Both the position numbers and the translations under genes were made by a program. The notes beneath the pieces were generated by a model that was not told where the DNA came from, made no database searches, and saw only the letters and a list, made by a program, of their open reading frames with translations. From NCBI GenBank assembly GCA_009776805.1, contig WRNB01000011.1, positions 1 through 34,997 on the forward strand: a DNA stretch of 34,997 nt, in the 5' to 3' direction. Below, in pieces: positions 1 to 17,531 of the stretch (position 1 is the stretch's first letter; each line of letters starts with the position of its first letter). The DNA comes from Candidatus Bathycorpusculum grumuli. Its GTDB lineage: Archaea > Thermoproteota > Bathyarchaeia > Bathyarchaeales > Bathycorpusculaceae.

Positions 1-78
1 CGTGGTTTTTCTCCTGCAAGGCTTGAGGGTTTGGCGGATCATTTGTGGTCTTGGCATGAATTCTTCTATTTCAAATAG
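1..78 (+). pseudogene. C-terminal remnant of a transposase-like protein (cut by window edge)
   Basis: The window opens inside a reading frame that codes 25 residues, containing GFSPARLEGL and LWSWHEFFYF, and then ends at a TAG. A homologous stretch lies at 13504-13584 (GFSHAKLEGL, LWSWYEFYCC), with about three quarters of bases identical by eye over some 65 bp. A repeated C-terminal fragment of this kind, beside other insertion-sequence debris, suggests a transposase tail. I cannot name the IS family. Whether this copy is intact depends on sequence before the window. Confidence 0.35.
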
Positions 79-436
79 GTATTCTAAATTAGGACACTAC
101 CTTTATTTTTGTTGATGTTTAACACTTGTATTTCTTTTCATTAAATTATTAGATCACATATTAAAATGGTTTACAATGAAATTCTAACACAATCATAAAC
201 AAACCAAACAAAACCCTATCTCCAAAGACTTGAAATAACAAAAAATCTTACACACTAAACGTTTCAATCTTGTGCGAAATGTCAAATGTATAGTTATTAC
301 TCAGGAGATGGTTAAGAGAGTTAGTGATTGTTACAAGTTGTTTGATATTGTGTGCCCTGTTTCTATTTTGCGAAAACACGATTAGTATTTGTACCTAGAA
401 AAAATAGCGGAAACTACGGTTAAATATCTAAACATG
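79..436. other. Intergenic, AT-rich, no supported gene
   Basis: No convincing gene is present. The stretch around 185-260 is A/C-rich. A 25-codon plus-strand frame from the ATG at 308 has no family resemblance that I recognise and is not annotated. The region would hold the 3' end signals of the minus-strand surface-protein gene. Confidence 0.5.
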
Positions 437-2167: not shown

Positions 2168-3013
2168 CTAAACAACTATTCGCTATTTCATATGTTAGCA
2201 TATATTAATTGTTTTGCTATTTGGACATAAAGAACGATTTTCTTCATAAACATCACAAGCAGTTCCAACTCTTCATAGAAAAATGTTTTTTATAGTCTTT
2301 CTCTGTTTTAATTTTATTGATATAGCGTATAGGTAACCTCTAAAACATATGTTTACACTTCAAATCAACAAAAACAAAAAACCTGTATCCATAAATTGCA
2401 TACACGAATTACAAAACAGCATTCTTCAAATTACTATGAACAAAAATTTTTTTGCCAAAACAAAATGTTTCATCATTTTTTGCGTACCTGTGATTCTTAG
2501 GCAGTTATGAAAAGTGTCTCTTCAAAACTTGTATGTTATTTATAGGTGCATATTTTTTTTCGTGTATGCATAAGTAATATACAAATTCTGAAAAGTATTT
2601 CTACAATCATATAAACCATAACAAAGCCATAAAAACAGTGTAACCAAACCAATTCAACAACATCTCTGTAAATTATTAATCATGTTAAAACATATAGTTC
2701 ACAAATTTGTATGCTAATTATGAATGTATAGTTTTTTTGTTTATTGTTGGTGTTTTGTTTGTAGATATTTTTCACGTGTTTTTTGTGAGTAGATGGTTGG
2801 TGTTTTGTTTATGGTTGTTGGGAAATGTTAATTGCTCTATTTAGTTGTGTTATTGAAGGTTGGATTGAACATTGCGGTTATGGACTATAAAAAGTCAAAT
2901 TATTATATTACTTTCTAAGTGTTTGTTGGATAAGGGTGATTTGTGGAATAGGTCACTAGTTTTTTGTGTTACTATTAGTATGGTGTATAGTTATTTTGGG
3001 AATAGTGTATGCT
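2168..3013. other. AT-rich spacer with a 15-bp direct repeat
   Basis: About 850 bases separate the surface-protein gene from the transferase gene, with no coding region I can support. A perfect 15-bp direct repeat, GTTGGTGTTTTGTTT, occurs at 2746-2760 and 2796-2810, exactly 50 bp apart. The left part is A-rich, and the part from about 2735 is G/T-rich on the plus strand. It forms the left border of the assembly-line-like locus. Confidence 0.5.
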
Positions 3014-3682
3014 ATGTTTGAAGTTGTTATTCTTATTGTTATTCCAGAGCTTACATTGGATGAATATGCCTTTTTGTTTTCATGTGTTTCTTCTGAAAAA
3101 CAAAAGCGTATAATGCGTTTTTGTGATTTTCAGAGTGCTCAGAACTGCTTGTTGGGTGATATTTTAGCTCGTACTGAGTTGTGTCATGCAACAGGGCTTA
3201 GTAATAAACAGCTTGAATTTGCTACTAATCCTTATGGGAAACCGTATTTAACAAATAGTTCTATTTATTATAATATTTCTCATGCTAGTTCTTATGTTGC
3301 TTGTGTGGTGGCTGATGAACCTGTTGGTATAGATATAGAGTTTGTTAAGTATGTTGATGTGAAAATTGCTGAACGTTTTTTTTCACCAAATGAAGTAGCA
3401 TATATTTTATCGGTTTTTGGTGATATGCGAATTCAACGTTTTTTTGAGGTGTGGACAAAGAAAGAAAGTAGGATTAAATTAGAAGGGAAAGGTTTGTTAA
3501 AGCATTTAAGTGATTTTAATGTATTAGATGGTTTAAATCAGTCTGGGATTTTTTATCATTCTGTTTATAGTGACGCGAAAGTTATGTGTCATGTGTGTTC
3601 AAGTAAAAAGGAAGCTCCAAATGTTAGAATAATTGATGTAAACACTTTGTTGCATCATTTTCAATTGTGTGATAAGGTGTAA
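3014..3682 (+). CDS. 4'-phosphopantetheinyl transferase, Sfp type
   Basis: The enzyme would transfer the phosphopantetheine arm of CoA to the carrier-protein serine and so activate the carrier domain coded next door. The 222-residue product shows the family signatures in order: NPYGKPYL near residue 72, NISHAS at 88-92, VGIDIE at 104-109 (Mg-binding Asp107 and Glu109) and WTKKES at 147-152. The length fits Sfp-type enzymes. The frame is open back to 2966, but ATG 3014 gives the usual start, a few residues before the first beta strand and PELT. It converges on the FAAL-ACP-reductase gene with 59 bp between stop codons. Sfp-type transferases are uncommon in archaea, so its partner is very likely the neighbouring carrier domain. 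Confidence 0.85.
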   Translation: MFEVVILIVIPELTLDEYAFLFSCVSSEKQKRIMRFCDFQSAQNCLLGDILARTELCHATGLSNKQLEFATNPYGKPYLTNSSIYYNISHASSYVACVVADEPVGIDIEFVKYVDVKIAERFFSPNEVAYILSVFGDMRIQRFFEVWTKKESRIKLEGKGLLKHLSDFNVLDGLNQSGIFYHSVYSDAKVMCHVCSSKKEAPNVRIIDVNTLLHHFQLCDKV

Positions 3683-3700
3683 ACAAGCATTATCAAGATC

Positions 3701-3728
3701 ATTTTTCACATCTATTTTTTATAATTTT
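3701..3728 (+). terminator. Oligo-T tracts between convergent genes
   Basis: Two T-runs (3701-3705 and 3714-3720) follow the transferase stop codon in the 59-bp gap between convergent genes. Oligo-T without a stem is the usual archaeal terminator form. No hairpin is evident. Confidence 0.35.
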
Positions 3729-3741
3729 ACGGCATATGGCG

Positions 3742-6700
3742 TTAATTTTCTTTTTTTCTATCAACATCATTGTTAACATTTGATGGGTATCCTTTGATTT
3801 GAGTAGTTTTTGAAATATACCCCATTTCAGCAAACATTTCTAAATATTTGCGGAAAATTTTTTCATCTAAAAACGGACACTTAATTTCACTACCTTCAAG
3901 CAACTCATCTGTGTTTGTGGTATCAATATGTGCTTGCATGTTTCCATATCTTTCAATTAAGCTCTCACCCTCTTTATGTTTGTTTGTAAATAATCGCGAT
4001 AGAATGCTTAACGCGTTTTCTTGAAAAGAATATGTGACTAATTTTTTTGTCCATTCAGTATAGGGTAAAATTTCTAAATCGTAACCTGCATTTTTAATAA
4101 AACCGCCAATGTTTTTAATGTTTGTAACGTTTTTGTTGACGAGGTTGAAGCATTTACCAACGGCCTTTGTTTGGCGAGATATGTGTATAATTGCGTTGCT
4201 CACATAGTCTACTGGTGTGAGTGGTAAATGTATGTCTATATTTGGTGCAGCACTCATTTGAATGCATCCTACAATAGTGCGACTTATAATATCTTCTAAT
4301 TTCCATACGCCTTCATTGAAAGAAGCAGTGATTTCGCCTGGGCGATATATGGTGGTTCGTAAGCCACGTGACGTTGCCTCTGATACAAGTTTTTCAGCTA
4401 CCCATTTTGTTTCAGAATAACCTAGAAAATATCCATCAGAAGATAGCAAAGGGTCAGATTCCAAACCTATTTTATTGAAGTGACTAGGATTGTCATATAC
4501 GCTATATGATGAAACATGGTGAAAATATTTTGGTTTGCCTGTACAAGCAAAACGTAAGCATTCAATTGTACCGTTTACATTTGTCTGTTTGAGGTGATTG
4601 TATGAAAATAAGAAATTCAATACAGCACCATTGTGGTATATTGCGTCAATTATGTTGCAAAGGTCAGTGTATAATTTGTTTTCAATACCAAGGTCGGGTT
4701 TTGTTAAATCTCCTGGTATCGCTACAATTTTGTTTCTGAATTTTTCTTCCCAGCAACGGAAATATTGCATGTTTTTAACGATACGTTCTATGGCTTTTTG
4801 TTGATTTTCAGCTCGCACATGACAAAAAATGGTAATGTTTTCATCTTTAGACTGTTCAATTAATGCTCGGATTAAATGAGCTCCTAAAAAGCCGGTGCTA
4901 CCTGTAAGGAAAATATTGTGACACGTTTCAGGTTGGGTGTCATAATTTTGTAGTGGTCTAATATTGTCATCTAAAATACATTCATTTGATAAATTAATTT
5001 GTTTGTGTTTTTCACCTCGTAACAAAAGTTGAATATGGTGTGCTAAGTCTTTTACAGTTAATGAACCGACAATTTGTTTAATGTCTATTTCTACACCTGT
5101 TTGATATTCTAACTTGTTTAACATTTCAATTGCCGTAAGAGAGTTAGTACCTAAATCCGTGAAAAAGGTGTTATCATCAAAGTCCATGTGACCGATGAAA
5201 CTTTGAAACACGTTTCTAACACAAATTTTTATTTCTTCTATGGAAGCATTCGCTGATAAATTTGATGAAGCCGTACATAAAATTTCAGTGTTATCCTTGA
5301 TTGATGTTTTTGTGCTGTATAAAATGTTTAATTTATTTTTTTCGTAAAGTTGTTTGATAGTGTTTGTTTTGATTTTTCTGTTATCAGTGCGAGGGAGTGT
5401 GTTTTTTTGAACAAAAACAATGTCATTAAATGAGAAATTGTATGATTGAGCTACAACATGATTAATGTCACGTATTAATGGGGCAAACGTGTGTGTGTCA
5501 CTTTCTATACAGAGCACAGTTTCTTCTTTATTACCGGTTTGAACAGAAAAAACACTTATAGTGTCTTTTGGTAATGTGGGGCAACGTTGTTGTAGAAGAA
5601 GTGTAATATCATTAGGGTAAATATTTTTGCCATTAACAATAATCATTTCCGATAAACGGCCTGTAAGGTAAAGTTCATCATCAAAAATAATGCCCATATC
5701 GCCTGTACGATAAAAAAAACCGTCAAATCCTTTAATGGTTGTGTAAAATCGTTTTGTTTCTTTTGGATTTTTCCAATAGCCCTGGCAAACGCTATCACCT
5801 TGAATGCATATTTCGCCAATTTCGTTTTCTGCACAAGGTAAGCCATTTTCATTTATGGCTAAAACTTTTAAACCCTTTATAGGTGGACCTAGGCTAACTA
5901 CTCGTTTATGTTTTTCGTTTTCAGTTATAATGAATTTGCCAGTTAAGTATTCATTGGTATCAATTTTTTGGTATTTGTATGAAAGAGGTGAAAGTGAGGT
6001 GATGCAGACACACTCAGATAGACCATATCCAGCAGCAAAGGATTTATGGGCAATGTTAAACAGGTCGCAAAATGTCTCTATGGTGTGGGAGAATACAAAT
6101 TCTGATCCGTTAATTAAAAGTGTTACATGAGATAAATCGTATTTTTTAGCGTCTTCTTTGCTTACAAGTTTTGTACATGTATCATATGCTGAGTTGGGTG
6201 CTACTGTTACGTTAATTTTGAAATCGGATATAACTTTTAACCAAATTGTTGGTTTTTGTAAGAATTGAAGTGTAGGTATGAAATATGCTATACCATGTTT
6301 TGCTACAATAGGAAGAAATATTGCAACTAACAAACCAATGTTATGATAAAAAGGAACCCATGACACTAAATTATTACCTTGAGAGAAATCAAACACTTCT
6401 TTACAATTATTAATACAACTCATAAGTTGCCTATTTGTCACCATAACTCCTTTAGGTTCAGATGTGGAACCGGAAGTATATTGTAAATATACAAGGTCAT
6501 CTCTTTGAAGAGTTTTAAAAACATCAATGTCATCATGTTCAACTACCCTATCCGTATATATGCGCTTTAAAAATATGACCTGTAAAAATGCTTTCCTGAG
6601 AAGAACTTTAGTTATGTCATTTTTCGATTCTTGCTCTAAGGCATAATTGGATACTAAAAACTTTGGTTTGCAGGATTTAAGTACTGAAATAAATCGCGAC

Positions 6701-6996
6701 AATTTTGAATCATCAATAGGCGGTGGAATAACAGTAAATACAATGCCCTCCATCATACAACCAAAAATTGCATAAATTGTACCTGCATCTTGCATAGAAA
6801 ATATAATTGCTCTATCACCATTTTTTGCACCCTTATTTCTTAATGTTAAAGCAATATCGCGTGATTTTTGATATAATTGTTTTACACTAATTTGCTGTGT
6901 ACCTAAAGGGTCTTTGCTGCAATCTAAAAAATTATATACGCATCGTTCAGGATTGCTCTTTATACCCATATATAAATAATCAAGAATACTTTCCAT
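3742..6996 (-). CDS. Fatty-acyl-AMP ligase / acyl carrier / thioester reductase fusion
   Basis: This 1084-residue single-module protein should activate a carboxylic acid as acyl-AMP, load it onto its own carrier domain and release it by NAD(P)H reduction. Residues 1-550 are an adenylating domain: YTSGSTSEPKG at 173-183, SWVPFYHNIGLL at 212-223, YGLSE at 324-328, TGD at 431-433 and LPRTDNRKIK at 534-543. The SWxPxYHxxGL motif and the extra segment at about 335-370, before VVSLGPP, are typical of fatty-acyl-AMP ligases and not of CoA ligases. Residues about 585-660 are the carrier domain, with DLGTNSL and attachment Ser619. Residues 692-1060 are an extended SDR reductase: TGSTGFLG at 698-705 and catalytic Tyr860/Lys864 in GYSETK. 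The architecture resembles carboxylic acid reductases and reductive release modules. The natural acid is unknown. Confidence 0.85.
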   Translation of the reverse strand: MESILDYLYMGIKSNPERCVYNFLDCSKDPLGTQQISVKQLYQKSRDIALTLRNKGAKNGDRAIIFSMQDAGTIYAIFGCMMEGIVFTVIPPPIDDSKLSRFISVLKSCKPKFLVSNYALEQESKNDITKVLLRKAFLQVIFLKRIYTDRVVEHDDIDVFKTLQRDDLVYLQYTSGSTSEPKGVMVTNRQLMSCINNCKEVFDFSQGNNLVSWVPFYHNIGLLVAIFLPIVAKHGIAYFIPTLQFLQKPTIWLKVISDFKINVTVAPNSAYDTCTKLVSKEDAKKYDLSHVTLLINGSEFVFSHTIETFCDLFNIAHKSFAAGYGLSECVCITSLSPLSYKYQKIDTNEYLTGKFIITENEKHKRVVSLGPPIKGLKVLAINENGLPCAENEIGEICIQGDSVCQGYWKNPKETKRFYTTIKGFDGFFYRTGDMGIIFDDELYLTGRLSEMIIVNGKNIYPNDITLLLQQRCPTLPKDTISVFSVQTGNKEETVLCIESDTHTFAPLIRDINHVVAQSYNFSFNDIVFVQKNTLPRTDNRKIKTNTIKQLYEKNKLNILYSTKTSIKDNTEILCTASSNLSANASIEEIKICVRNVFQSFIGHMDFDDNTFFTDLGTNSLTAIEMLNKLEYQTGVEIDIKQIVGSLTVKDLAHHIQLLLRGEKHKQINLSNECILDDNIRPLQNYDTQPETCHNIFLTGSTGFLGAHLIRALIEQSKDENITIFCHVRAENQQKAIERIVKNMQYFRCWEEKFRNKIVAIPGDLTKPDLGIENKLYTDLCNIIDAIYHNGAVLNFLFSYNHLKQTNVNGTIECLRFACTGKPKYFHHVSSYSVYDNPSHFNKIGLESDPLLSSDGYFLGYSETKWVAEKLVSEATSRGLRTTIYRPGEITASFNEGVWKLEDIISRTIVGCIQMSAAPNIDIHLPLTPVDYVSNAIIHISRQTKAVGKCFNLVNKNVTNIKNIGGFIKNAGYDLEILPYTEWTKKLVTYSFQENALSILSRLFTNKHKEGESLIERYGNMQAHIDTTNTDELLEGSEIKCPFLDEKIFRKYLEMFAEMGYISKTTQIKGYPSNVNNDVDRKKEN

Positions 6997-6999
6997 GAT

Positions 7000-7260
7000 T
7001 TACCAATTCCAATAAACAAAAATATGACTAACCATATCAAAAACAATATGACTATTTTGTTCCTCAAATTTGTTACTGAGAAAAACATTACTTATAACAC
7101 ATAAAAACAGCGTTTTTACCATAGAACAAAAACCCGTAAAGTATCCATCACGTATACATGTAAAAATTTTTATTACATCAACATTTTTACGCCCAAAAAA
7201 TAACGCTTTATTTTTTCTCTCGATAACAAACAATTCAGTCAAACAACCTACAAACATCAT
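7000..7260 (-). CDS. Possible small protein directly upstream of the FAAL gene
   Basis: An 86-codon minus-strand frame ends three bases before the ATG of the FAAL fusion, as a translationally coupled gene would. The product contains a hydrophobic stretch (MVKTLFLCVISNVFL) and no motif that I know. A plus-strand frame of similar length overlaps it, so the open frame alone proves little. It may simply be the leader region of the fusion gene. Its position is the only support. Confidence 0.25.
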   Translation of the reverse strand: MMFVGCLTELFVIERKNKALFFGRKNVDVIKIFTCIRDGYFTGFCSMVKTLFLCVISNVFLSNKFEEQNSHIVFDMVSHIFVYWNW

Positions 7261-7667
7261 GTTGCCTCTAACTTCCCATAAATACCATTTATTAACGTAT
7301 GTATTCTTTTAAGACAATCATATGTATGTAGTACAGAATTAAACTAAACATACTGCACATTTTTTGAAATATTGGGGGTTGCTTAATCAAAAAACAGACC
7401 TTTTTAGTAAGTATTTCTCACTACTTAGCAACACTGCTCCAACACTACACACAATTTACCTGAAAGCAGATTTTCTGCTGAAAAACAAAAATCCAACGAT
7501 ATAATGCGACAACAAATACTAACAACAACAAACAGCAATTGTTCTCAATTATTCTGTTACATAACATACATGCGACACAGGTGAATCCGACATAGTTTTA
7601 TCCAAAAACCACATAGTATATCTTTTCAATGAAAACTCTTGGATATAATTTTTATGTATCGAGTTAA
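7261..7667. other. Spacer between decarboxylase and FAAL genes, with two short inverted repeats
   Basis: The gap lies between two genes on the same strand and holds no convincing gene. Two small inverted repeats are visible: AGCAGA-TTT-TCTGCT at 7465-7479 and TAAGTA/TACTTA at 7408-7427. On the minus transcript the first lies downstream of the decarboxylase stop. It could act as a processing or attenuation hairpin, but no T-run follows it directly. The gap leaves room for a separate promoter for the FAAL gene. Confidence 0.4.
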
Positions 7668-9353
7668 TTAACGAAATACAAACGATCGCGGTTTGTGAGG
7701 TACTTCTTTTACTTTAAAACTATCTTTTATTAAATCAAATTCTGAAATTAATCGATCCAAGTCTTGTACCATTTGTTCCACTTTTTCAAGTGTAAAATAT
7801 GGAGACATTTGATACACCTTAAGGACGCCAATTTTTATTCCATTGGATAATACCTTGTATCCGCTGGCATAATCAAGTGTAAACCAGCATTTACCTAACT
7901 TTTGTTGTTCAAAAATGTATAAATAAAATTTATGATTAAACAGAGCAAATTTTCTTGTTTCTTCAACATCTTTGTTAGTTAAATGAAAGAAAGATGTGTC
8001 ATTATGAATTTCTTTTGCTACAAATAATGTAACAAAGCCATCGCTATCTTCATTATTGATAACTTCAAATCTAGGATGTGCGTTAAGCAATTCTTTTAGT
8101 CGTTCTGCAGTGTTGTATAAATTGCCTATTAATTTTTGATACCCTGCAAATCCAAGCATTTTTAAATTTACGTAAGCTCCAATAGGTCCATTTAAAGAGC
8201 GTGAAAGCTCTAGTGTGTATTGAAAAGGTGAATAATTTCCATATTCTAGTTCCTTGTAGGGAATGGGTTTTAGCTTTCCTTGAGCATAAATTTCTGATAC
8301 ATCAGCTGTTATATAAACGCTTGAAAGATAAGGACAAAATCCAGTTTTATGAAAATCAACACCAAATGAGTCAGCATATTTAATATCTTCTATTTTCTGT
8401 AGTTGTCTTTGAATTTTTTTCAATGCACCGGGTAATAAATCTAGAGGATTTGTTTTAAAATCATATTTTTTGAAAAAAAGCATTACCCAACCAATAACAG
8501 AATCAACATGAATTCTCGGTTTATAATTTAATTGATGCTTTTTTACCATTTTATCTCGCAATTCAACAATTTTACGAATTGGATCAACCGTCATTTGAAT
8601 TGTAGTGCCACCATTTGCCGTAATCAGAGCCACCTTTTTTCCTTCAGACAAAGCACAATTCATTTCTTTTTCCAATATTTCAATGTCAATAACACCCATT
8701 TGGTTGGTGGGAATACGAATACAGTTCTTCTCACCTATCCCTAACCACCCACAGACTTCAGGTAGACATGGATGACCTTGTGTTGATGTAAATGCTACAA
8801 TTTCATCTTTAATTCCATTTTCAATTGCATCTGGACTTACTCTTTGAATACCATGCTTTAATGCGTGTAAATTAGTAGATTTACCACCAAATGTAAATAT
8901 GCCTCCTGCTACTTTATAATCTAACCCAACTAGTTGACAAAGCATTTTAATAACTATCAATTCTGTTGTGAGTAAATATCCGCAGGCTATGTCTTGTGCA
9001 CCATTTCCATTATATAATGATACATAACTTGTTGCTGCAATAGATGGAAGTGTTGCGGGTGGATTAATGTTTATCATGGTTCCATGATGGTTCCATTTTA
9101 AAATGCCTTGTGCATAAAAAGATAAGTCTTCATAAACTTTTTCAATGCTTGTTTCTTTTTCTGGCAAAATTTCTTTTTCTAAAATGGCAGCATACTTTTT
9201 GTGTATATCATTTTTCATTCTTGGATTTTCAACATCAAAATAGCGCAAAAATTTTTTGTGAAGTGACTGAATTCCATCAATAACTTGATCAATATTCATA
9301 GTTTCAGGGTTTAAAAATAACTCTTTTACATCTGCCGCTTTTTTTTCGTTCAT
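7668..9353 (-). CDS. PLP-dependent group II amino-acid decarboxylase family protein
   Basis: This 561-residue fold-type I PLP enzyme belongs to the glutamate/aromatic amino-acid decarboxylase superfamily. GGIFTFGGKSTNLHAL (150-165) matches the phosphate-binding GGS/T region. His194 in STQGHP is placed to stack on the cofactor ring. Asp284 in HVDSVIG should bind the pyridine nitrogen. Lys336 in FHKTGFCPY is the Schiff-base lysine. The usual HVDAA is HVDSV here, and the sequence is longer than typical GadB (about 466 aa). The substrate cannot be read from the sequence. It lies upstream of the FAAL fusion on the same strand, so it may provide an amine or act on a carrier-derived intermediate; that is inference. 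The start has a weak AAGGA about 11 bases upstream. Confidence 0.8.
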   Translation of the reverse strand: MNEKKAADVKELFLNPETMNIDQVIDGIQSLHKKFLRYFDVENPRMKNDIHKKYAAILEKEILPEKETSIEKVYEDLSFYAQGILKWNHHGTMININPPATLPSIAATSYVSLYNGNGAQDIACGYLLTTELIVIKMLCQLVGLDYKVAGGIFTFGGKSTNLHALKHGIQRVSPDAIENGIKDEIVAFTSTQGHPCLPEVCGWLGIGEKNCIRIPTNQMGVIDIEILEKEMNCALSEGKKVALITANGGTTIQMTVDPIRKIVELRDKMVKKHQLNYKPRIHVDSVIGWVMLFFKKYDFKTNPLDLLPGALKKIQRQLQKIEDIKYADSFGVDFHKTGFCPYLSSVYITADVSEIYAQGKLKPIPYKELEYGNYSPFQYTLELSRSLNGPIGAYVNLKMLGFAGYQKLIGNLYNTAERLKELLNAHPRFEVINNEDSDGFVTLFVAKEIHNDTSFFHLTNKDVEETRKFALFNHKFYLYIFEQQKLGKCWFTLDYASGYKVLSNGIKIGVLKVYQMSPYFTLEKVEQMVQDLDRLISEFDLIKDSFKVKEVPHKPRSFVFR

Positions 9354-9970: not shown

Positions 9971-10842
9971 ATGTTAAATACCATGCGATACAAAGAAGGA
10001 ATCGACAGATATCAAACAGTACTAGTGCCAAAAAGCCTTGACCAATGCATACCACAAAACAGCATCTGCAGACTAATAGATGCCTTCACACAAGCCCTAG
10101 ACATGCAAAAACTAGGCTACAAATACGTAACCACAAACCAAACAGGCGACCGCCCATACGACCCACGCATGATGCTAAACCTCTATTTATACGGATACCT
10201 ACACAAAATACGCTCCAGCCGACGCCTACAAGCAGAAACAACACGCAACATAGAAGTTATGTGGTTAACAAACCAACAAACACCTGATTATGAGACAATT
10301 ATAAACTTCCGACACGACAACATAGTAGCCATAAAACAAACTTTCCTCATATTTTCATTAATGTTAAGCGATGTCGGTCTTTATGGTAAAGAAACCGAGG
10401 TTATTGATGGTATTAAATTTCGTGCAAACAATAGTCACAAAAATAGCTACAACCCTACCACTTTAAAAGGAAAAATTATAAATATTGACAAGCAAATAAC
10501 ACAACGTTTAAACGAACAAGAAAAAAATGCCAAACAACAAGAAGAAAAAGATGTTTTGTTTAATTCTCAGAAAAGTAAAGAGTTGATTCAACAATTAAAA
10601 GATGAAATTGTTTATTTGGAAAAACTCTTAGAACAAGTAGAAAAAGAAGACAAGTCTTAACAGTAGGCCATGAATTCACGTTTAATGCGCAGTGGTGGAG
10701 ACATCAGACCACTTGATGTGTGTTACAACACCATAACAATTGTAGATGCAAAACACAAATTTATTGTGGTTTTTGAAGTAACCAACCAACCAATGATTCT
10801 GGGTACTTTGGAGTTGGTGTCAAAAAAAGTACAAGATGTTTT
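9971..10842 (+). pseudogene. IS1182-family transposase, broken by two stops and truncated
   Basis: The frame matches an IS1182-type DDE transposase. Its N-terminal part reads GDRPYDPRMMLNLYLYGYL, then RSSRRLQAETTRNIEVMWLT, then TIINFRHDN. The catalytic domain begins at EVIDGIKFRANNS. A Glu/Lys-rich coil follows, and the same frame continues after TAA 10658 and a nearby TAG with NSRLMRSGG, DVCYNTITIVDAKHKFIVVFEVTN and KKVQDVLG. Two nonsense codons in one frame, without a frameshift, therefore interrupt it. Homology stops at about 10842, where a small inverted-repeat element begins, so the remaining C-terminal part is lost. The first 350 bases are strongly A/C-rich and the rest is not. Confidence 0.8.
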
Positions 10843-10953
10843 AGGCAGCCTCCGAAAACCCCATTTCAGAAAACTAAGTAACATAGCTACACTGTTTTTG
10901 GTATGTGATTTTTGGGAAAAATATAGGTTTTCGGAGGTCGCCTTTAGTATCTT
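10833..10953. mobile_element. MITE-like element inserted in the IS1182 remnant (copy 1)
   Basis: Inverted ends CCTCCGAAAACC (10849-10860) and GGTTTTCGGAGG (10926-10937) bound about 100 bp of non-coding DNA. With flanking bases the inverted similarity extends to about 28 bp (21 matches by eye). If the element proper is 10844-10942, TTTA occurs on both sides (10840-10843 and 10943-10946) as a possible 4-bp target duplication. It sits exactly where transposase homology ends. Related, more degraded copies lie near 12339 and 20664. Confidence 0.55.
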
Positions 10954-11081
10954 ATGGGTAAAATTCTTTGTAAAGTGTGTAGAATTTTTGTTCGTTTTGG
11001 TTTCAACTCAACCGTGTTGGGTTTATAGTCAGTTTTTCTTGGTGTTACTATGTTTATGGGCAATCTGTCATTAGCTATAAT

Positions 11082-12215
11082 TTAACTCTCCATTTTTTCT
11101 TTTAAGAGACTAGAAACACAGCATTTTGATACTCTCAATATTTCAGAAATGTTGGCATAACTGAATGTTTTCTCATCAAGGCTTCTCAAATATTTCGCTT
11201 TTTTTGCATTAATGTCTTTTTTTGTGCTGTAACCATCCAGAGTGTCAAGTATTTTTTTTAGATCAAAAAAAACCGCAAACAAGCTTTCAAGACTTAAATT
11301 CTTATTGGCTATTACAGAATCAATTGATGCTTTTTGGCATATTTCCTCAATTTCAGCACCAGTTAACCCACTAAATGCAGTTGTCAACAAATTTAATTCT
11401 TTATCACTAAATTTTTTGTTAGTAAAGTATTGTATTAATTGTTTTGTTGTTTCCTTATCTGGTTTTTCGATCTTGATACGGAAACTAAATCGTCTCCACA
11501 CAGCGGGATCTAATAGTTGCTCATGGTTTGTTGCAGCAATAATTATACTGCCGCTTTGCAGTTGATCTATATTTTGTAGTAGACTATTAACAACACGTTT
11601 CAATTCACCTAGTTCGTTGTTATCGTCGCGTATTTTTGCGATGGCATCAAATTCGTCCAAAAACAAAATACAAGGAACTGCTTGTGCATACTCAAAAATT
11701 GCACGTATATTTTTGGCCGTACGGCCTAGATATGATGAAATAAGACCATCAATTCTTGCAATTACTAAGGGCAACTTAGTTTTTAAGCAGATATAGTTTG
11801 CTAATTTGCTTTTTCCGCATCCCGGAGGGCCATATAGTAAAATTGTGTTTGGAACTTTAATCCCGGCGTTGACAAGTTTGTTTGTATTTTTGTGGTATTC
11901 TAAAAACTTGTTGACTTGTTCTTTTGCTAAATGGTTTAGTGCGATTTTTGTGTCAGTTAATTGATCGGCTTGGAGTATGTCTGCCATTGGTAGACGGAAT
12001 TCTTGATCCAATGGAACTTTAACCATCTCATCTATAGATTTTTGTGACATGTTATTCAAATTGTTGTTTAGTATTTTAACAAAAGAGTTTGCTATTTTAT
12101 CTTCTTTGTTTTCTTTTAATTTATCGACTAGGAGATTTGTGTAACTTAGTACTTTTGCTTTGTCGGATTTTAAGGCCCCCTCGACTATTTTTATCATTTC
12201 ATTTGAGTATTCCAC
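11082..12215 (-). CDS. AAA+ ATPase of the type often paired with a subtilase (S8) peptidase
   Basis: This 377-residue soluble ATPase has one AAA module. Numbered from GTG 12215, Walker A GPPGCGKS is at 129-136 and Walker B ILFLDEFD at 183-190. The sensor segment AATNHEQLLD and the arginine segment WRRFSFRI follow, then an alpha-helical lid. The ELKRVVNSLLQNIDQ segment and the NKLVNAGIKVPNTILL entry resemble ATPases that stand beside S8 proteases in bacterial and archaeal accessory loci. No peptidase gene is found on either side: downstream is the MITE-like element, upstream is A/C-rich non-coding DNA. The start was set by GGAGG eight bases before GTG; an in-frame TTG at 12230 lacks such support. 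Its role is unknown, and it may be an orphan. Confidence 0.7.
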   Translation of the reverse strand: MEYSNEMIKIVEGALKSDKAKVLSYTNLLVDKLKENKEDKIANSFVKILNNNLNNMSQKSIDEMVKVPLDQEFRLPMADILQADQLTDTKIALNHLAKEQVNKFLEYHKNTNKLVNAGIKVPNTILLYGPPGCGKSKLANYICLKTKLPLVIARIDGLISSYLGRTAKNIRAIFEYAQAVPCILFLDEFDAIAKIRDDNNELGELKRVVNSLLQNIDQLQSGSIIIAATNHEQLLDPAVWRRFSFRIKIEKPDKETTKQLIQYFTNKKFSDKELNLLTTAFSGLTGAEIEEICQKASIDSVIANKNLSLESLFAVFFDLKKILDTLDGYSTKKDINAKKAKYLRSLDEKTFSYANISEILRVSKCCVSSLLKEKMES

Positions 12216-12223
12216 TGTATGCG

Positions 12224-12228
12224 CCTCC
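12224..12228 (-). promoter_or_regulatory. Shine-Dalgarno GGAGG that sets a GTG start
   Basis: GGAGG lies eight bases before GTG at 12213-12215, which makes that codon the likely start of the AAA+ ATPase. It overlaps the first codons of the longer TTG-initiated frame. Confidence 0.6.
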
Positions 12229-12338
12229 AAATACGATTATTATGTTAATACAGACGGTATCCCCAATAAATAGGTATTGAAGTGTTTTTTTAAGAACGAA
12301 TTTAATGATTTTTAGAACGATACCGTTTAGATATATGT

Positions 12339-12962: not shown

Positions 12963-13044
12963 TGTAAATGTTTTTGTGTATTTGTGGTGAATTTTAAGGT
13001 TGTTTTTTGATTTATAGCTAAATTTAGTTGATTTTTAAAAAGAT

Positions 13045-13500
13045 ATGAGGCCATATTGCCAAAAAAATGAAGAGATACGGGTCAAAGTTTTAGTTTGTTG
13101 TAGGTTTGGTTGTGTTCTTTCTATGTTTGTTTTTGTGGTTTTGGGTTGTTTTTTTTGGAAGTTGGTGTTGGTGTGGTGTTTGGGTGTTTGGGTGTTGTAT
13201 AGTCATGTTGTTTGTGGATTGTTGTGTGTTTTTCTTTTGGGTTTTTTGCTGGGGTGTATTTTGTTGTGGTGGTCGTTTGTGTATTGTTTTTGTATTTGTT
13301 GTGGTGGATGTGTTGGTTGTTTTTTTGTTTTTGGTGTGGTTTTTGTGGGGTCTAGTTTTTGGGGGTTTGGGGTGTTTATGTATGTGTTTATTGTTTTTGT
13401 TGGGTTTTTTGTTGTGTTGTATTTTTTTTGTTTGTTTTGTGTGTGTTGTTGTTAATGGTTGTTGTTTGTTTTTGTTGTTGTTTTTGTGTTAGTTTTCAGA
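13045..13500. other. Extreme G/T-rich block, non-coding
   Basis: In 13201-13260 I count 53 of 60 plus-strand bases as G or T. The two overlapping plus-strand frames here encode only Val/Phe/Leu/Cys/Gly/Trp strings, as expected from the composition, and are not annotated as membrane proteins. The block leads directly into the transposase-like tail at 13504. Confidence 0.55.
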
Positions 13501-13503
13501 TAG

Positions 13504-13584
13504 TGTGGTTTTTCTCATGCTAAGCTTGAGGGTTTGTTTGGTTATTTGTGGTCTTGGTACGAGTTTTATTGTTGTAGAGCATAA
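13504..13584 (+). pseudogene. Second copy of the transposase-like C-terminal fragment
   Basis: A 26-codon frame with GFSHAKLEGL and LWSWYEFYCC ends in TAA. It follows a stop codon directly, so no upstream part survives in frame. It is homologous to the fragment at the left window edge. The stretch between about 13045 and here may be its decayed body, but I cannot align it to anything. Confidence 0.35.
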
Positions 13585-16248: not shown

Positions 16249-16473
16249 TTACTTCTTATTTTTTGTTTTTAGCTTTTCGAAGAGTGTATCTATTTCGTCT
16301 CTTCGTTGTTTTGTCATTGCAGCATCTACAGTGTATGATACGCCATTTCCATTATCTTTTAATACGTCTCCCTCTTTGACGTCTTTGCTGATTTTTGATA
16401 ATGGTATATCTACCATTGTATCGTCAACTTCGCAAATGGCTAATCCGTTTTCTATTCGATCAACAATTATCAT
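16249..16473 (-). CDS. DUF3006 domain protein
   Basis: The 74-residue protein starts with IIVDRIENGLAICEVDD, the typical DUF3006 opening, and ends in a Lys-rich helix (LFEKLKTKNKK). DUF3006 proteins often sit next to or are fused with ComEC-like metallo-beta-lactamase proteins, and the same holds here: its ATG overlaps the stop of the upstream MBL gene by four bases (ATGA). This suggests translational coupling. Its biochemical role is not known. Confidence 0.8.
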   Translation of the reverse strand: MIIVDRIENGLAICEVDDTMVDIPLSKISKDVKEGDVLKDNGNGVSYTVDAAMTKQRRDEIDTLFEKLKTKNKK

Positions 16474-17531
16474 GGTTTACACGTACCACATGGTGTATAA
16501 CCTGCATCTATTGCTTCCTGTCGTGAATTAAAATATATTCTATTTGTTTCGATAGGTAACGAGTGACAAGTAGGTAAATGGAATATTTTGCTGTTTTTAT
16601 TGCCTATGTATATTGTTCCTTCTTCTGTTGGGGTTGGCGTGTCTTTTTCAACTGTTACAGTTATTGTTTTTCCATCAGTTGTAAATATTATTGTGCCGTT
16701 TTCGTCAGTTCTATAAATTGTGGCTCCTGTTGCAATTAAGCGTGTCATGGCTTCTTGATGTGGGTGATTATAAGTGTTACCTGCGCCACAGCTTATCACT
16801 GCATAAGTGGGGGTAACGATGTCTAAATAATTTTTAGAACTGCTTGTTCGTGACCCGTGATGTCCAACTTTAAGCACGTCGGCGTCAAGTGATAATCCAT
16901 TTGTTATTTGATCATTTTCTGATTTTGTGTCTGCATCACCTGTGAATAAGAAAACTGTTTCGCCAAATTCTACGCGTAAAACGACAGAGCATTCATTGAG
17001 GTCTGAATATATGTAATTTGGTGCAATAACTTGTATGTTTGCGTTTCCCATAGTAAAATTTTGTCCTGGTTCTGCTATATTTACAGTTATGTCTTTTGCA
17101 TCAATAGCGGTAATTAAGTTTTTATATGCTTGTATGGTGTGTGTTTTATCTGGCATAATAATTGTATCTATATTGTCCATTTTATTGACAACAGCTGTCA
17201 TTGCTCCAATGTGGTCTGCATGTGGATGTGTTGCTACAAGATAATCTAAACTTGTTACCTCATATGTGGATAAATAATTGAGCATAAGTTGGTCTTGGCC
17301 AATATTTCCTGCATCTATTAGCATTGTATGTGTACCAGTTTTTAAGAGAATAGAATCTGCTTGTCCAACATCAAGAAAAATAACTTCTAACGTGCCCTGA
17401 TCTAGTACTTGGGTATCTATTGTTGGTGTAGTTGGAAACAAAGAATCAGAGTTTTCATTAACTACTACACACGTAGCGATTAACGCTATAGCAACTACTG
17501 CTGTTATCGCAAAAATCTGTGGCTTTTTCAT
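16470..17531 (-). CDS. Exported ComEC-like metallo-beta-lactamase hydrolase with Ada-type zinc tail
   Basis: The 353-residue protein begins with a signal or membrane anchor (IFAITAVVAIALIATCVVV). A ComEC/Rec2-type MBL domain follows: IFLDVGQADSILL (51-63), THPHADHIGA (101-110), FLFTGDAD and the distal KVGHHGS. The C-terminal part, after PTPTEEGTIYIG, has NKNSKIFHLPTCHSLP and CGTCKP, the pattern of an Ada-type metal-binding domain. A secreted or surface-bound nuclease or phosphodiesterase acting on extracellular DNA is plausible. The first gene of the DUF3006/creatininase set, it has a TATA-like box about 27 bases upstream, which suggests a leaderless transcript. Confidence 0.8.
   Translation of the reverse strand: MKKPQIFAITAVVAIALIATCVVVNENSDSLFPTTPTIDTQVLDQGTLEVIFLDVGQADSILLKTGTHTMLIDAGNIGQDQLMLNYLSTYEVTSLDYLVATHPHADHIGAMTAVVNKMDNIDTIIMPDKTHTIQAYKNLITAIDAKDITVNIAEPGQNFTMGNANIQVIAPNYIYSDLNECSVVLRVEFGETVFLFTGDADTKSENDQITNGLSLDADVLKVGHHGSRTSSSKNYLDIVTPTYAVISCGAGNTYNHPHQEAMTRLIATGATIYRTDENGTIIFTTDGKTITVTVEKDTPTPTEEGTIYIGNKNSKIFHLPTCHSLPIETNRIYFNSRQEAIDAGYTPCGTCKP

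Follow-up and report, generated by a model that had tools for sequence, protein, structure and literature searches.

Bacterial fatty acyl-AMP ligases (FAALs), among them LpFAAL (3kxw), the olefin-synthase FAAL (7r7f) and FadD32/FadD28, have a common fold, carry a FAAL-specific helix and a FAAL-specific insertion together with a Trp/Pro pair in the pocket, and feed polyketide synthases (PKSs) or nonribosomal peptide synthetases (NRPSs). In 2021 they were reported everywhere but in archaea (PMC8460268), and a 2025 review names one Halobacteria metagenome-assembled genome (MAG) as an exception (PMC11837247). Reductive release of carrier-bound acids is represented by the carboxylic acid reductases (CARs), which have an adenylation-thiolation-reductase (A-T-R) order and require a phosphopantetheinyl transferase (PPTase), and by the terminal reductase of the myxalamid protein MxaA, which ends a PKS-NRPS line. 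Here we describe a gene fusion of a FAAL, an acyl carrier protein (ACP) and a thioester reductase, together with its neighbouring PPTase gene, in the genome of Candidatus Bathycorpusculum grumuli (2,287,482 bp in 173 contigs); the window analysed is the whole of contig C11, 34,997 bp in length. No paper on an archaeal FAAL-ACP-reductase was found among the open papers. A preliminary description of this DNA had proposed a reductive module that works autonomously and has a dedicated transferase, and the domains, the motifs and the recurrence of the pair in eight genomes of the genus agree with it: we consider it probable that the two genes constitute a horizontally acquired, self-sufficient module for the reduction of carboxylic acids.

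The fusion gene (3742-6996, minus strand) encodes a single protein of 1084 amino acids in which the Pfam domains AMP-binding, PP-binding and NAD_binding_4 follow one another. It was studied in alignments of seven archaeal and 14 bacterial copies and in an AlphaFold model (mean pLDDT 79.8), whose pTM of 0.51 implies that the relative placement of the domains means little. The adenylation domain (residues about 1-560; 5317-6996, minus strand) is closest to FAALs both by sequence, its top matches in the Protein Data Bank being 3kxw, 7r7f, FadD23 and FadD32, and by fold (Foldseek TM 0.88 against the olefin-synthase FAAL). The marks of FAALs defined in PMC8460268 include the specific helix, the insertion and pocket residues. 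The model has a helix at residues 242-247, where the segment TLQFLQKP (residues 242-249; 6250-6273, minus strand) aligns with TQDFAMRP of EcFAAL (3pbk), whose FAAL-specific helix spans residues 252-258; the insertion region (residues 333-366; 5899-6000, minus strand) is aligned throughout with the Legionella FAAL and forms a strand-helix-strand of its own; and EcFAAL Trp224 and Pro226, of the blocked and alternative pockets, correspond to Trp213 and Pro215, invariant in all 21 copies. The acyl carrier domain (residues 584-662; 5011-5247, minus strand; PP-binding 1.6e-8) bears the attachment residue Ser619 (5140-5142), likewise invariant in the 21 copies. The thioester reductase domain (residues 690-1061; 3814-4929, minus strand) scores 301 bits against TIGR01746 (cut-off 213), shows the GxxGxxG motif as TGSTGFLG and has the Tyr-x3-Lys pair of short-chain dehydrogenases/reductases as Tyr860 and Lys864, which together with Ser619 are unchanged across the seven archaeal copies. 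Its closest relative of solved structure is the reductase (R) domain of MxaA (4u7w/4w4t; 33-34% identity, TM 0.89-0.91), with 4u7w the closest. Purifying selection acts on the fusion (dN/dS 0.07-0.19 where dS is unsaturated). The Pfam order, the invariant residues and the closest solved folds thus bear out the earlier assignment of a FAAL-type adenylation domain, a carrier with Ser619 and a reductase with Tyr860/Lys864. Unlike the bacterial FAALs, which supply a PKS or NRPS, the archaeal domain is joined to a reductase, and in place of the assembly line that MxaA terminates the acid would be loaded directly.

The second gene of the module encodes an Sfp/AusB-like 4'-phosphopantetheinyl transferase (3014-3682, plus strand) and lies tail to tail with the fusion, 59 bp away. 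Its product has the two ACPS-fold halves of Sfp-type enzymes (Pfam AASDHPPT_N 3e-13, ACPS 2e-14) and their motifs, GxDxE and WTKKES..K, within which D123/E125, W163, K166/E167 and K171 are invariant in an alignment of homologues. The NCBIfam profile for AusB, the aureusimine PPTase, matches at 6e-31 with 107.6 of 225 bits; because this lies below the curated cut-off, the protein is predicted to be a relative of AusB and not AusB itself. Homologues begin at MFxV, and for this reason the start is most likely the ATG at 3014 rather than the GTG at 2966 given previously; the Sfp-type identity and the distance of 59 bp stand. This is the sole ACPS-family protein in the window genome, just as the carrier domain of the fusion is the only one there.

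The distribution of the two genes was followed in 32 genomes of the genus and 398 of the phylum. The fusion occurs in eight of the 32, and the PPTase, sought both with its own profile and with the general Pfam ACPS family, in exactly those eight, so that searching archaeal genomes for the two proteins, as had been recommended, returned one and the same set within the genus. Carrier domains in the genus are confined to these genomes too, all of them within the fusion save one extra in G020. Were the genomes independent, an identical set of eight would arise by chance about once in 10 million, a figure that kinship makes less extreme. At six loci fusion and PPTase lie side by side in convergent orientation. 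Across the phylum, the genus Bathycorpusculum alone yielded close relatives of the fusion (E <= 1e-60), in four genomes, and carrier domains were found in 33 of 398. Such counts fit the earlier statement that archaea rarely encode carrier chemistry, but that statement needs tempering, as archaeal NRPSs are known: the rumen methanogen Methanobrevibacter ruminantium has NRPSs as well as a PPTase, probably of bacterial origin (PMC2812497). That gut archaeon resembles the present case in combining carrier chemistry with such a PPTase, and differs in that its NRPS is multimodular, with condensation domains, and its PPTase is in a separate cluster.

Several observations weigh against a complete, self-sufficient pair headed by a true FAAL. 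In G010 the fusion and the PPTase are on separate contigs, between which a joining overlap was looked for and none was found, and in G008 the PPTase (L014, G008:C74, 1756-2446) is split between two frames, through frameshift or decay or through an assembly error. The PPTase is also less constrained than the fusion (dN/dS 0.2-0.5), and the carrier motif reads LGTNSL in most archaeal copies, that of the window included, versus LGGDSL in most bacterial ones. Finally, EcFAAL Phe279, one of three bulky residues that block CoA, is replaced by Ser269 in 21 of 21 copies, and a second, Met231, by Ile220 (Ile or Leu among the copies). With the bulky Phe279/Met231 block changed in this way, exclusion of CoA by the fusion may be imperfect; we make no claim of a strict CoA-rejecting FAAL, and the residues point to a FAAL-type domain with an altered CoA block. 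The fusion of G008 is itself divided between two contigs.

Matches to the reductase domain in G007 and G026 were considered as further copies of the fusion and rejected, as they belong to a different protein, a reductase-AMP-ligase without a carrier. These proteins of about 935 amino acids (L061, G007:C3, 2362-5166; L062, G026:C2, 4766-7567) have a similar reductase domain; in L061 a Male-sterility-type reductase stands ahead of the AMP-binding domain and the gene adjoins one for a polysaccharide pyruvyl transferase. Similar frames are present in G011 and G016.

The nearest full-length non-archaeal relatives found are in gut Firmicutes, at 44-52% identity. They occur as single genes in gut Clostridia (Anaerotruncus massiliensis, Angelakisella, Anaeromassilibacillus and others) that match the archaeal fusion in length and domain order and share with it the Ser in place of Phe279. 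Bacterial relatives were scanned for with two short peptide patterns, by which more distant kin are missed; a survey of the order around Anaerotruncus gave one match in 295, the query genome itself, and the family is therefore sparse there. Unlike the archaeal loci, those of the Clostridia have variable neighbours, which at two or three loci include a GAF-ABC ATPase together with a MacB/FtsX-type permease: the permease follows the fusion at L026, L028 and L033, and the ATPase is present too at two (L033 being assigned by clustering with the other two). Permease neighbours would fit an exported product, but this is only suggestive, and no described product of the clostridial enzymes was found in the open literature. 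The PPTase, which travels with the fusion in archaea, was not found in the available DNA flanking the bacterial fusions; a related PPTase lies elsewhere in ten of 15 bacterial genomes.

The archaeal copies of the fusion form one clade (support 100/100, and 100/99 in another tree). The rpoB species tree, which covers 27 of the 32 genomes, divides the genus in two (100/100) and requires at least five changes to account for the distribution of the fusion, whereas the fusion tree breaks this two-way split, both species-tree groupings being rejected (p-AU 0.0007 and 0.0014). The pairing of G000 with G024, contrary to the species tree, recurs in the fusion tree (97/95) and in the PPTase tree (95/99). 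Given these rejected groupings and the pairing common to both gene trees, the simplest history would be a single entry into archaea followed by transfer among archaeal lineages with both genes together. We infer the direction, from bacteria to archaea, from the wider bacterial spread of such enzymes and from the fact that the other genomes of the genus have no carriers. The suspicion of acquisition in the preliminary description is thereby upheld, the archaeal copies being one clade whose closest kin found are the single genes of gut Clostridia. A Bathyarchaeia lineage from the termite hindgut is now placed in the genus Bathycorpusculum (PMC10684969), and the pair would have come into termite-gut members of this genus from a lineage in common with gut Clostridia, a single entry being the simplest reading, and would later have moved as a unit. 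On the sequences compared, the anatomy and history of the module appear well supported, and its chemistry is predicted.

The architecture, catalytic residues, co-occurrence and joint history, all read from sequence, suggest a model for the catalytic steps, substrate, product and role of the module. According to the model, the PPTase attaches a phosphopantetheine arm to Ser619, on the sole carrier that was detected in the genome; a carboxylic acid would then be converted to acyl-AMP by the FAAL domain and loaded by it onto this arm, and the C-terminal NAD(P)H-dependent reductase would release an aldehyde, or an alcohol after a second reduction. Both a two-electron and a four-electron reduction would fit the sequence, whose closest solved R domain is that of MxaA. 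The most likely sources of the acid are an external supply, such as fatty acids of the gut or the diet, and the amino-acid fermentation of the cell itself, rather than fatty-acid synthesis, since a further carrier and a recognisable fatty-acid ketosynthase are both lacking from the genome: PF00109 gave one short match only, in an open reading frame (ORF) of about 400 amino acids common to the genus, and also matches in all archaeal control genomes. We tentatively propose that a portable, PPTase-equipped FAAL-ACP-reductase cassette gave otherwise carrier-free archaea a new chemistry, the formation of free fatty aldehyde or alcohol in the termite gut. If so, that product might serve as a signal or as a wax-like or ether-lipid precursor, in a domain said in 2021 to lack FAALs. 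The carrier, the release domain and the genome's only PPTase make a clear archaeal set, present in eight genomes, and offer a clean natural test of carrier chemistry entering a host without it.

A different role, rather unlikely in our judgement, would be that of a general CAR-like reductase acting on aryl or branched acids that amino-acid fermentation supplies, the alcohols serving to dispose of reducing equivalents and not as lipid or signal. The three-domain logic and PPTase requirement are indeed those of CARs, whose structures 5msc and 5msp match over the carrier and reductase; members of the genus ferment amino acids (PMC10684969); and the carrier and ketosynthase of fatty-acid synthesis were not found. 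However, the adenylation domain groups with FAALs and not with those of CARs, the CAR model NF041592 yields 162 of 1300 bits with its best stretch in the carrier and reductase, and the patchy presence of the fusion, in a quarter of the genus genomes, speaks against a core redox role.

The preliminary description had added a third gene to the fusion and PPTase, a PLP-dependent decarboxylase (7668-9353, minus strand; Pyridoxal_deC 4e-19). The ORF is present as reported, upstream of the fusion on the same strand, and is under purifying selection, both of which could favour a pathway in which an amine from the decarboxylase condenses with the aldehyde, or in which the aldehyde is aminated. We regard such a pathway as highly improbable. 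The two genes are 671 bp apart with no conserved gene between them, and thus do not form a tight operon. (An 86-aa ORF in this gap, at 7000-7260, has no convincing homologue at other loci and was taken as chance.) At no other locus is the decarboxylase beside the fusion, and where the test of co-occurrence succeeded for fusion and PPTase it failed here, close orthologues being found in two genomes without the fusion, G012 (83%) and G004 (69%). Homologues at 42% are located on other contigs, and that of G015 occupies the same site as that of G004, adjoining conserved, unrelated genes for an amino-acid kinase and a DNA glycosylase. On co-occurrence and synteny we therefore reject membership of the decarboxylase in the unit, and with it goes the support for an amine-derived product.

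We think it very unlikely that the fusion starts or loads a larger assembly line whose genes lie elsewhere, its reductase acting on the returned product: G020 does have an NRPS as well, its contig also carrying an archaeal Nop5 gene, but the seven other fusion genomes have no further carrier domain and the module already terminates in a release domain. This NRPS (L059, G020:C16, 7517-11428), of 1304 amino acids with C-A-T-TE order and sharing its contig with the Nop5/56 gene, gives this Bathycorpusculum genome a carrier system besides the fusion and distinct from it.

That a bacterial gene was misbinned or arrived as contamination might be feared, the genomes analysed being MAGs and gut Clostridia the closest non-archaeal kin, but is scarcely credible, since the contig also bears an archaeal CCA-adding enzyme far over its cut-off (TIGR03671, 427 bits against 281) and is therefore archaeal, eight MAGs carry fusion copies 68-74% identical to that of the window in one clade, and an equally close bacterial copy was absent from the collection searched. 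The earlier concern that the contig might prove bacterial is likewise answered by this enzyme and by the gene pair in eight genomes of the genus.

Transposase remnants had been reported at both borders of the locus. On the right, outside the unit, there is a broken IS1182-family transposase in two ORFs (9971-11074, plus strand), the N-terminal one matching NF033551 at 2.5e-40 and the second, without a family match, being assigned as the remainder by position; on the left there is only a 77-bp repeat (window 1-80), of which the genome has about ten copies, twice at contig starts, and which recurs in degenerate form at 13505-13565. A search of plasmids for the fusion gave no match at or above 60% identity, and among IMG/VR viruses its adenylation part alone was matched, at 27-29%. 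A tRNA scan of the window found none, and an Rfam scan gave no match at the gathering threshold. Elsewhere in the window, an AAA ATPase (11085-12230, minus strand) matches the NCBIfam model for the anti-phage ATPase IteA with 424 bits, short of the 510 that its cut-off requires, and is a candidate defence gene. A gene at 16473-17531 (minus strand) unusually combines a metallo-beta-lactamase domain with one of Ada-type metal-binding kind, and a low-complexity, strongly T/G-rich stretch at 12969-13513 (plus strand) is extremely skewed between the strands and contains numerous imperfect repeats.

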